The position numbers and the translations under genes were made by a program. From Pseudomonas alloputida (GTDB lineage: Bacteria > Pseudomonadota > Gammaproteobacteria > Pseudomonadales > Pseudomonadaceae), in NCBI RefSeq assembly GCF_021283545.2, contig NZ_CP128540.1:5678501-5742500 (forward strand): 64,000 bases of DNA. The letters are read 5' to 3'. The stretch's first letter is position 1, and each line of letters starts with the position of its first letter. The notes beneath the pieces are model-generated. The model had not been told where the DNA came from. It was given only the letters and a program-made list of their open reading frames with translations, and did not search any database. Of the stretch, positions 7,014 to 52,202 are shown piece after piece.

Positions 7014-8381
7014 ATGAGAGGAACACGCGTCTCTTTCTATAACCTGGCCTGGCGTTGGCATTTTTATGCGGGGCTGTTCGTGGCCCCGTTCATGATCCTG
7101 TTGGCAATCACCGGGATCATCTACTTGTTCAAGCCCCAGCTCGACCCGCTGCTGTACCGCGACCTGATGGTGGTCGAGGCCGGCCAGCACCGGCAGGGCG
7201 CAGACACGATGCTGGCTGAAGTGCGCCAAGCCTACCCAAAGGGCCACATCGCCCAGTACTTGCCGCCACTGAACGCCGCGCGCAGTGCGCAGTTCGTGGT
7301 GCATGACGGCGGGCGCGAACTGAACGTGTTCGTCGACCCATACAGCGGCAAGGTCCTCGGCGAACAGGACGGCAAGCAGAACCTGCAGGCCATCGCCCGC
7401 GCCCTGCATGGCGAGCTGATGGTCGGCACGGTCGGTGACCGGCTGGTGGAACTGGCTGCGGGCTGGGGCATCGTGCTGGTGGTATCGGGCCTGTACCTGT
7501 GGTGGCCGCGCGGGCGCAGTGGCGCTGGCGTGCTTTGGCCGCGGCTGTCGGCGCGCGGCCGGCTGTTCTGGCGAGACCTGCACGCGGTAACCGGTTTCTG
7601 GGGTTCGGCCTTGCTGTTGTTGATGCTGGTCAGCGGCATGACCTGGACCGGCTTGTGGGGCAAGCAGTACGCTGATTTGTGGAACCGCTTCCCGGCAGCC
7701 ATGTGGAACGACGTGCCCAAGTCGGACCAGCAGGCGCGTGAGCTGAACAGCGCACACCGCCAGACCGTGCCCTGGGCCATGGAAAACACGCCGATGCCAC
7801 AGTCCGGTGCACACGCCGAGCACGCCGGGCACCACATGATGTCGGACATGCCCGCAGCGCCCCAGGTGAGCGTGCAGCAAGTCGAAGACATTGCCACTTC
7901 GCGTCAGGTCGAGCTGGGCTACAGCATTACCCTGCCCACCACGGCAGACGGCGTGTTCACCATTGCCGTGTTCGCCGACGACCCGCGCAACGACGCCACC
8001 CTGCATGTCGACCAATACACCGGCAAGGTTCTGGCCGATGTGCGCTGGCACGACTACAGCCCGGTTGCCCGCGCCACCGAGCTGGGGGTGATGCTGCATG
8101 AGGGCAAGATGTTCGGGGCGCTGAACCAGATCATCATCCTGCTGGTGTGCCTGATGATTCTGCTGGGTTCGGTGAGCGGGCTGGTGATGTGGTGGAAGCG
8201 CCGTCCTGAAGGCGGCCTGGGCGTACCGCCTTTGCGTCATGACCTGCCACGCTGGAAGGCGGCAGTGGCCGTGATGCTGGTGCTGGGGGTGATGTTCCCG
8301 CTGGTGGGGGTGTCGATGGTGGTGATGTGGGGGGTGGATAGTTTGGTGGTGAGGCGCCGCCGGGTCTTGGCCAGCGCTTGA
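7014..8381 (+). CDS. PepSY-associated TM family protein of the copper module
   Basis: 455-residue inner-membrane protein with about five TM segments (near residues 19-41, 147-165, 192-212, 368-388, 415-438) and PepSY-like periplasmic domains between them; PepSY_TM proteins such as PiuB commonly sit beside TonB-dependent receptors and are thought to reduce or release the imported metal. A linker near residues 260-275 is rich in His and Met (HAEHAGHHMMSDMP), consistent with copper. A strong AGGAGG Shine-Dalgarno precedes the ATG. It is the last gene of the copper run and ends just before the REP carrying the IS110 element. Confidence 0.87.
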   Translation: MRGTRVSFYNLAWRWHFYAGLFVAPFMILLAITGIIYLFKPQLDPLLYRDLMVVEAGQHRQGADTMLAEVRQAYPKGHIAQYLPPLNAARSAQFVVHDGGRELNVFVDPYSGKVLGEQDGKQNLQAIARALHGELMVGTVGDRLVELAAGWGIVLVVSGLYLWWPRGRSGAGVLWPRLSARGRLFWRDLHAVTGFWGSALLLLMLVSGMTWTGLWGKQYADLWNRFPAAMWNDVPKSDQQARELNSAHRQTVPWAMENTPMPQSGAHAEHAGHHMMSDMPAAPQVSVQQVEDIATSRQVELGYSITLPTTADGVFTIAVFADDPRNDATLHVDQYTGKVLADVRWHDYSPVARATELGVMLHEGKMFGALNQIIILLVCLMILLGSVSGLVMWWKRRPEGGLGVPPLRHDLPRWKAAVAVMLVLGVMFPLVGVSMVVMWGVDSLVVRRRRVLASA

Positions 8382-8393
8382 GCCTTGTGTTGC

Positions 8394-8424
8394 CTGTGCT
8401 GGCCTCTTCGCGGGTAAACCCGCT
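8394..8424 (+). repeat. Left half of a REP split by the IS110 element
   Basis: CCTGTGCTGGCCTCTTCGCG GGTAAACCCGCT is the first part of a P. putida REP; the expected continuation CCTACGAGGGACCGCG appears at 9741, on the far side of the insertion sequence. The break is exactly at the CT dinucleotide. Confidence 0.88.
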
Positions 8425-8439
8425 TGTATGGTAGGACTT

Positions 8440-8590
8440 GAAGGGAGGAGGAGGGCCATAACTCGCTTCTGACTGTTCGCGCAGTACAGACCGTAGGAGA
8501 AATCACCCCTCCTCCTTTCAACACCCAAGCGCCGATAAGGAATGCCTCGCGAGCAAGCGACAATAGAAGCAAGCCTGCGCCAGGGTGTGC
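8440..8590 (+). ncRNA. Candidate IS110 bridge RNA (target- and donor-binding loops)
   Basis: By eye, 8440-8451 (GAAGGGAGGAGG) pairs with 8508-8519 (CCTCCTCCTTTC, 11 of 12). Inside this stem, 8460-8467 (AACTCGCT) equals the REP left flank plus core AACCCGCT apart from one position that keeps a G.U pair, and 8492-8499 (CGTAGGAG) is the exact complement of core plus right flank CTCCTACG. Between them TCTG/CAGA and ACTG/CAGT can form a small hairpin. A second stem-loop follows: ACACCC and GCGC (8521-8532) against GCGC and GGGTGT (8577-8588), a possible donor loop. The layout matches published IS110 bridge RNAs; transcription and folding are inferred. Confidence 0.6.
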
Positions 8591-8627
8591 CCTTCAAGTC
8601 ACACTACGCTACAAGGAGCAGCTATTC

Positions 8628-9593
8628 ATGGCAATGTCCGCAATCCCAATCGAAGCTGGCGTGGACACCTCCAAAGATGAACTGGTGATTCAAGCCGCTC
8701 CGAATACCAAATCCTTCGCCATCCCTAACACTCCGAAAGCAATCAAAGCCTGGCTCAAGACGCTGCCCAAAGGCTCAGCGCTGGCCATCGAAGCGACCAG
8801 TACCTATCACATGGAAATGGCGGAGCAAGCCCATGCTGCGGGCTTCGCGGTATACGTTATCGATGGGCTGAGGCTGAGTAAGTACCGGGAAAGTGTTGCT
8901 ATACGGGCAAAAACAGATGCCCATGATGCCGCTTTGCTCGCCCGCTTCCTGAGCAACGAGCGGGGCTCTTTGAAGGCTTGGACTCCGCCACCAGCCGGGC
9001 ATCGTGAGATCCAGGTGCTGCTGCGCCGCCGCGCCAAACTTGTAGCAGTGCGCGGCATGCTGCGGATGAGCTTGTCGGGCGACAAATTGTTTGCCTCAGA
9101 ACTCAAACGTGTTGAGGAAGTGCTCGAACGCATAGAGCTTTCGCTGGAAAAACAGCTGCGTGCGGTGATCAAGAAGGCGGGGCTTTCCGATCAGATGCGC
9201 CGTGTTCAGAGGCTTCCGGGTGTTGGTTTCTTAACGGCTGCCGGCCTGGTGATGTCCTTCATGCGCGGCGAGTTCAAGAACAGCGACGCCTTTGTCGCTT
9301 ATCTAGGCATGGATGTAACGGTTTCCCAATCCGGTAAATGGGCAGGCAGAGGGAAGTTGAGCAAGCGCGGAGACTCGGAGGTCCGTAGACTCCTGTACAA
9401 CGCCTCGATGAGCGGCAGTCGAACCGCGACCTGGAAGCAGTATTACGCCCATCACCAAGCCCGGGGGAAGAAAACCACTCAAGCCTTGGTGATCCTTGCA
9501 CGTCGCTTGGCTCGGCTGGCCTTCGGCCTGATGAGGCATCAGGCCGACTGGAAGCCCGAGATATATACCGGAGGTGCCAAGCCGGCCAGCTGA
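8628..9593 (+). CDS. IS110-family transposase (DEDD RuvC-like plus Tnp20 domain)
   Basis: 321 residues. The N-terminal DEDD domain shows the acidic residues in GVDTSKDEL (about residue 13), AIEATSTYH and KTDAHDAALLARF (about residues 99-103). The C-terminal transposase IS116/IS110/IS902 domain starts near RRVQRLPGVGFLTA, continues with YLGMDVTVSQSGKWAGRGKLSKRG and carries the serine-containing YNASMSGSRTA segment expected for the nucleophile. AAGGAG lies 9 bases before the ATG. The gene appears intact, so the element may be active. It is not related to the neighbouring copper or permease genes. Confidence 0.95.
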   Translation: MAMSAIPIEAGVDTSKDELVIQAAPNTKSFAIPNTPKAIKAWLKTLPKGSALAIEATSTYHMEMAEQAHAAGFAVYVIDGLRLSKYRESVAIRAKTDAHDAALLARFLSNERGSLKAWTPPPAGHREIQVLLRRRAKLVAVRGMLRMSLSGDKLFASELKRVEEVLERIELSLEKQLRAVIKKAGLSDQMRRVQRLPGVGFLTAAGLVMSFMRGEFKNSDAFVAYLGMDVTVSQSGKWAGRGKLSKRGDSEVRRLLYNASMSGSRTATWKQYYAHHQARGKKTTQALVILARRLARLAFGLMRHQADWKPEIYTGGAKPAS

Positions 9594-9740
9594 GGCTGGG
9601 GCTGCAACGCAGCCCGCCCAAACTGACGGGCAGTATCCAATGCTGGGGAGAAATTCTCTGGCACGCTGACTCGTACCTCGAGGTTGCTGAGAGAGGCCGA
9701 TGGCGTTTTTACTGAAAATTTGCCTCCGGCCATAGAATCT
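9594..9740. other. 3' non-coding end of the IS110 element
   Basis: About 145 bases without a gene. It holds a small hairpin (GCCCG...CGGGC around 9610-9633) and, close to the end, TTGCCT at 9720-9725. If the element is excised as a circle with one CT core, TTGCCT stands 17 bases before TATGGT at 8427-8432, giving a junction promoter pointing into the candidate bridge RNA. Confidence 0.55.
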
Positions 9741-9796
9741 CCTACGAGGGACCGCGTTGTAGGAGCGGGTTTACCCGCGAAGAGGCCGGTACAGGC
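9741..9796. repeat. Right remainder of split REP plus intact inverted REP
   Basis: CCTACGAGGGACCGCG completes the interrupted REP; it is followed by GTAGGAGCGGGTTTACCCGC GAAGAGGCCGGTACAGGC, an intact REP in the opposite orientation. Before insertion this was therefore an ordinary inverted REP pair between the copper module and cycA. Confidence 0.85.
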
Positions 9797-51940: not shown

Positions 51941-52027
51941 GCCCAGGTGGCGGAATTGGTAGACGCGCTGGTTTCAGGTATCAGTGACCGCAAGGTCGTG
52001 GAAGTTCGAGTCTTCTCCTGGGCACCA
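51941..52027 (+). tRNA. tRNA-Leu (CAG), first copy
   Basis: 87 nt including encoded CCA. Acceptor GCCCAGG/CCTGGGC with A73 and CCA; D arm GGCGGAATTGGTAGACGC; anticodon stem CTGGT/ATCAG, loop TTCAGGT with anticodon CAG; long variable arm (TGACCGCAAGGTCGT) of class II; T loop GTTCGAGTC. Decodes CUG, the dominant Leu codon here. Confidence 0.97.
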
Positions 52028-52115
52028 AATATTTTCAAGTAACAGATGACCAAGGATCTGTTACTACTGTGTGAAAGCGAACGATAGTCGCCTTCTGCAG
52101 ATGATGTAAAGCTTT

Positions 52116-52202
52116 GCCCAGGTGGCGGAATTGGTAGACGCGCTGGTTTCAGGTATCAGTGACCGCAAGGTCGTGGAAGTTCGAGTCTTCTCCTGGGCAC
52201 CA
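52116..52202 (+). tRNA. tRNA-Leu (CAG), second identical copy
   Basis: Identical over 87 nt to the copy at 51941, after an 88-base spacer without an obvious promoter, so both are probably processed from one precursor. A terminator follows 8 bases later. Confidence 0.97.

Follow-up and report, generated by a model that had tools for sequence, protein, structure and literature searches.

ISPpu10 is an insertion sequence of 1314 bp according to the available part of PMC3056050, and all of its copies (7/7) lie in REPs according to that of PMC1525189. In the accessible material of Durrant 2024, ISPpu10 appears in the legend of Extended Data Fig. 10c, together with a predicted left target guide (LTG), right target guide (RTG), left donor guide (LDG) and right donor guide (RDG). 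For IS621, the portion of PMC11208158 at our disposal describes a right donor guide made of AU, two flipped bases (UU) and GCAAG, followed by handshake bases, and the handshake-base rule comes from the same text. ISPpu9 and ISPpu10 are said, in the excerpt available, to be not highly similar. An RNA named Asr9 is antisense to the 5'-UTR of ISPpu9, and ssr9 also occurs as orphan copies with the end boxes of that element on either side (PMC8450116). The RNA opposite Asr9 may be a bridge RNA, and the ssr9 orphans may be bridge-RNA-only cassettes.

We analysed a stretch of 64,000 nucleotides from Pseudomonas alloputida (contig NZ_CP128540.1), hereafter the window, which carries an IS110-group element (features in Table 1). 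The source genome holds six identical copies with boundaries common to all, and every one of them (6/6) splits the same 13-mer, TTCGCGGGTAAACCCG-CT-CCTAC (AACCCG-CT-CCTAC); the wild-type target of the element is AACCCGCTCCTAC. In the window the flanks read AACCCG-CT on the left and CT-CCTACG on the right. Five loci were looked at for an orthologous site, and at one of them, in genome G057, the element is absent and the 13-mer is intact exactly at the end of the window's left flank. A search for near-identical copies of the element on plasmids gave no match; 1164 plasmid records match by protein, all of them below 60% identity.

The transposase scores above the cut-off for both PF01548 and PF02371 in Pfam, and its nearest solved relatives are those of IS621 (8wt6, E = 7.4e-23) and ISCro4 (9t56, E = 2.8e-22). 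In an alignment read by eye, residues D13, E55, D97, D100 and S235 stand opposite the corresponding catalytic residues of IS621, all of which are matched in an intact frame of 321 aa. The gene is preceded by 203 nt of non-coding sequence between the left core and the ATG, and the right end is also long (145 nt). A right non-coding end of 145-148 nt is common to the window element and to the relatives nearest to it (L008, L009, L038-L040); it measures 3-29 nt in most other relatives and 198 nt in L123 and L143. In L012, L013, L023, L061 and others, the terminal ATAGAATCT contains the TAG stop codon of the transposase gene, so that the gene ends within donor sequence. At the junction of a circular form, TTGCCT (9720-9725) and TATGGT (8427-8432) would sit 17 nt apart as a weak promoter-like pair, each hexamer scoring 4/6 in a check that had no null model; a junction pair of this kind is described for IS621 in the part of the literature available. 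A simple scan of positions 8350-9760 returned neither promoter nor terminator, and Rfam at gathering thresholds returned only two tRNAs over the whole window, a tandem pair of genes with equal scores, 84 nt each, at 51941-52199.

Does the 5' end of this element match the split REP beyond chance? The sequence-only reading had placed there a left guide equal to left flank plus core with one G.U-compatible change, a hairpin, and then a right guide given as the exact complement of core plus right flank. The letters and coordinates of the left guide were right, AACTCGCT fitting AACCCGCT with one wobble, and the three parts do follow each other in this order, the hairpin reading TCTGACTG..CAGTACAGA. 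For the right guide, complementarity to CTCCTAC stood over 7 nt (8493-8499) in 6/6 copies, whereas the eighth base turned out to be a coincidence of the window copy. The base opposite C8492 is A in four copies, C in one and G in one (the window), and the RTG is effectively 7 nt long because C8492 pairs only with this last G. Pairing of the CT core by both guides, as had been proposed, holds for the window copy. When we searched 20,000 dinucleotide shuffles of the 5' end for both guides in order, 15-60 nt apart and with G.U allowed, 27 contained them (p ~0.0014); the LTG alone was found in 3108 of these shuffles and the RTG alone in 911. With chance at about 0.14%, which is not negligible, the guide match in the window alone is modest, suggestive rather than decisive, and the comparison with relatives therefore carries the weight.

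The same reading had proposed folding of the 5' end to check its stem-enclosed loop, and the fold supports such a loop: the 203 nt fold at -82.1 kcal/mol in the MFE prediction (z = -5.5), 0/200 shuffles are as stable, and the structure co-varies in relatives; the 80-nt loop folded in isolation gives z = -3.9. The closing stem suggested for this loop, GAAGGGAGGAGG (8440-8451) with CCTCCTCCTTTC (8508-8519), has the right letters and forms its 12 pairs, one of them G.U, in the isolated 80 nt, but does not survive as such in the full-length fold, where 8440-8445 pairs with 8590-8595 and the target loop is closed by 8446-8455/8507-8516. The first 6 nt of the 12-bp stem (8440-8445) thus probably belong to the outer stem of the modelled RNA. 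Single folds of 37 relatives contain an outer stem of at least 5 bp in 34 cases and an inter-guide hairpin of at least 4 bp in 33. Over the 37, changes on both sides affect 15/28 pairs; shuffles give 6.9, and sliding the partners gives no more than 4. Many relatives lack the closing pairs of the outer stem (column 42 is unpaired in 13 of 37 and column 43 in 18), and RNAalifold did not recover the closing stem of the target loop on the MAFFT alignment, in which this stem is mis-aligned.

Table 1. Coordinates of the element, its insertion site and its predicted RNA in the window. Co-variation was scored on the window copy's own fold, so percentages of paired cells lean towards that fold.
Feature	Position	Strand	Basis or remark
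Split REP, left half: left target AACCCG at 8417-8422, core CT at its end (8423-8424)	8411..8424	+	13-mer uninterrupted at the orthologous site of G057
IS110-group insertion sequence, 1314 bp between two CT cores	8425..9738	+	ends set by comparing six copies whose flanks differ
Predicted bridge RNA body, target and donor loops inside outer stem 8435-8445/8590-8600	8435..8600	+	MFE fold; co-variation in 37 relatives
Target-binding loop (predicted), closing stem 8446-8455/8507-8516	8446..8516	+	closing stem of at least 6 bp in 34/37 folded relatives
Predicted LTG AACUCGCU (DNA AACTCGCT)	8460..8467	+	U8463 opposite bottom-strand G, a wobble
Hairpin separating the target guides	8468..8490	+	helix 2: 98.0% of cells paired, 4/7 pairs changed on both sides
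Predicted RTG GUAGGAG, pairing with CTCCTAC	8493..8499	+	8-nt form CGTAGGAG at 8492-8499
Candidate target-loop handshake base A, pairing with donor position 7 (T)	8500	+	A in 107/107 elements
Donor-binding loop (predicted), closing stem 8521-8532/8577-8588	8521..8588	+	helix 3: 87.4% of cells paired
Provisional LDG AAGGAAU, against left donor ATAGAAT	8537..8543	+	5 standard pairs, 1 G.U-type and 1 mismatch by eye; placed by analogy with IS621
Putative RDG AU(AGAA)GCAAG, pairing with CTTG and downstream donor AT	8563..8573	+	IS621 layout
Candidate donor-loop handshake base C, pairing with target position 7 (G8422)	8574	+	pairs in 103/107
IS110-family DEDD transposase, 321 aa	8628..9593	+	Pfam DEDD_Tnp_IS110 and Transposase_20
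Long 3' non-coding end; terminus CCATAGAAT is the left donor	9594..9738	+	
Split REP, right half: core CT (9739-9740), then right target CCTAC	9739..9745	+	

Protein and whole-genome searches yielded 146 loci, reduced to 140 transposase matches and 119 distinct entries; 109 of the latter were kept, having a whole frame and a left end, and 107 also had a right end, with 32 distinct guide pairs. Ends and RTG were located by the patterns [CT]TTGTA, AGAA[TC]CT and GT[AG][GA]GAG, and constancy inside these patterns is partly by construction. Over the 107 elements and their 32 guide pairs, the 6 non-core positions of the LTG scored 4.98 with the element's own target and 3.14 +/- 0.17 with permuted targets (maximum 3.88), with the LTG of L071 and L082 mis-anchored in this test and correctly anchored in the close-pair contrast and core count below. 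For the 5 non-core positions of the RTG, the corresponding scores were 4.95 and 4.71 +/- 0.05 (maximum 4.91). The own-target score was reached in 0/10,000 permutations for either guide.

Guide and target are shared by descent among relatives, and we therefore also compared 20 non-overlapping pairs of close relatives (transposase identity of 65% or more), which still depend on each other to some degree. The target had changed at 34/49 positions where the guide base had changed, and at 14/171 where it had not; 80/98 positions formed standard or G.U pairs with the element's own target, versus 44/98 with the targets swapped. The cleanest case opposes the window element to L008 (transposases 92% identical), in which GTAGGAG has become GTGGGAG in the RTG and CTCCTAC has become CTCCCAC in the target. 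Neither the permutations nor the pair contrasts eliminate shared ancestry completely. Whether guide changes track target changes among related elements was the test proposed with the sequence-only reading, and these counts agree with such tracking; since guide and target tend to change together, it is likely the RNA that chooses the insertion site, as the sequence-only reading had supposed in explaining REP targeting by RNA pairing.

The fit is poorer in L045, L047, L010, L018 and L019, which show one to three non-core mismatches. The left guide is shifted by one base in the group of L022 (11 elements); individual insertions, L031 and L048 among them, deviate from the guide. The left flank of L031 repeats the start of its own right flank (CTCCCACATTTGGT), as if two insertions lay side by side or a rearrangement had occurred.

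Pairing of the core differs between the two guides. The LTG ends in CT in 10 of the 32 guide pairs, in CA in 11, in AT in 10 and in AA in 1, leaving 22/32 without full core pairing in this guide; full pairing is a feature of the window copy and not of the lineage, because only 10/32 end in CT. The RTG ends in AG in 32/32, partly owing to the search pattern. One core base is left unpaired by the LTG (CA or AT) in 21/32 guide pairs, and the CA form resembles the donor guide of IS621. In the donor loop, the block GCCRATARRGAAT of the provisional LDG is present in 107/107 elements, and CAAG stands at the place of the RDG in 107/107 elements and in 37/37 aligned sequences. The base after the RDG and the target base left of the core are C with G in 101 elements, G with C in 2 and other combinations in 4 of the 107. 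Earlier placements had put the RDG at 8610-8615 (TACAAG, in overlap with the Shine-Dalgarno) and the LDG at 8563 (ATAGAA); they were dropped because they are not kept in relatives with a constant left donor; the IS621-like placement fits instead.

The REP variants of the hosts were counted in genomes G000, G390 and G009. The CTCCTAC-type 13-mer occurs 321, 5 and 0 times, respectively, and the CTCCCAC type 10, 92 and 66 times. The guides carried are GTAGGAG in G000 and GTGGGAG in G390 and G009, in each case a match to the commoner type. This fits guides that would follow the host's common REP variant, in three genomes where targeting and availability are not separable. Guides of the ISPpu10 lineage might then form an evolving address that follows the host, by single-base changes in a conserved RNA matched to the dominant REP variant, and the LTG that leaves one core base unpaired in most relatives (AT or CA), with an RTG that keeps both, could set the order of strand exchange. 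We advance this combined idea tentatively, and would lean slightly against it.

We propose that the 5' end of this IS110-group element is transcribed as a bridge RNA, whose LTG and RTG, in the target loop, would each fit one half of the REP that the element has split, and that pairing of these guides likely directs insertion there. Comparative sequence evidence leads us to give this reading a probability of about 0.93. Could the transposase protein instead recognise the REP, by its sequence or its hairpin, the 5' end being a structured leader and the guide match a coincidence or a trace of shared ancestry with REPs? Other families do have proteins that recognise REP palindromes. The leader is strongly folded near the start codon, chance produces both guides in 27/20,000 shuffles when the window is taken alone, and the folded 5'-UTR of ISPpu9 has been published as controlling translation (PMC8450116). 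However, between close relatives a change in the guide tends to come with one in the target (34/49 versus 14/171), and both guides are placed as those of IS621. Moreover, the upstream REP arm is missing from some insertions that retain the guide footprint (L040; L016 and L145 against L125), which speaks for the guide and against hairpin recognition. We consider protein recognition very unlikely.

It is more improbable still, in our view, that the bridge RNA exists while the region, as a leader, mainly regulates the transposase gene in cis, guide function having decayed in the window copy. Such a role would be consistent with the MFE fold, in which the 5'-most TGTA (8425-8428) pairs with TACA (8610-8613), adjoining a Shine-Dalgarno-like AAGGAG. 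Yet six identical copies in one target 13-mer suggest recent guided activity, and the catalytic residues of IS621 are all aligned in the intact frame.

Two other possibilities were set aside. An exchange of RNA and transposase modules was considered, 5' ends being up to 90% identical over their first 175 nt with transposases at 49%; the window pairs fall within the general spread, the 5' end being generally far better conserved than the protein over all pairs of 64 elements. As for orphan bridge RNAs, L126 has a full 5' end and contains a masked (N) stretch with transposase remnants on both sides, which provides no evidence, and no full 5' end was found in L132 or L133.

The finding is already known in kind, and very probably for this very element, because the Durrant 2024 legend names guides for ISPpu10 and the length of our element is that of ISPpu10. 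Open PMC papers yielded neither bench work on an ISPpu10 bridge RNA nor any account of guides that follow the REP variants of their hosts. What is added here is evidence that guides would follow the host's REP variant; the match to host REPs and the core asymmetry of the LTG can be tested, and extend a mechanism that has already been published. On sequence evidence alone, RNA pairing, and not recognition of the REP hairpin by the protein, would account for REP targeting; natural guide-target pairs such as the window element and L008, which differ by one base each, provide a minimal bench test.

How does the locus compare with known systems? It has the traits of the IS110 bridge-RNA group: a DEDD domain and a C-terminal Tnp domain with the catalytic serine, a long non-coding left end with a conserved fold, no terminal inverted repeats, and LTG and RTG that fit target and core. 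The element is very likely ISPpu10 itself, an identity drawn from the 1314 bp length, the IS110 family and the REP target; the available descriptions of ISPpu10 in Pseudomonas putida KT2440 also give no inverted repeats, and the differences are the host genome and the copy number, 7 in KT2440 against 6 here. ISPpu9, another IS110-family element, shares the insertion position in the REP and a long structured 5'-UTR, in the part of its description available, and is set apart by that description with its antisense Asr9 and sense Ssr9 RNAs. ISPa11 and the IS1111 seekRNA resemble our element in REP target and RNA-directed target choice, according to the accessible part of PMC11187229; unlike there, where the RNA lies 3' of the transposase gene, the guides here are upstream of it. 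The downstream RNA position of the IS1111 group, which is also marked by subterminal inverted repeats, is thus not found. With IS621 (8wt6), finally, the likeness extends to a predicted left-end RNA with target and donor loops, an LTG and RTG that include the CT core, the putative AU..GCAAG donor guide, the candidate handshake base A and the catalytic residues. However, the transposases are distant, the RTG would have 7 nt here versus 4 in IS621, and both loops sit inside a predicted outer stem, where descriptions of IS621 give a 5' stem-loop.
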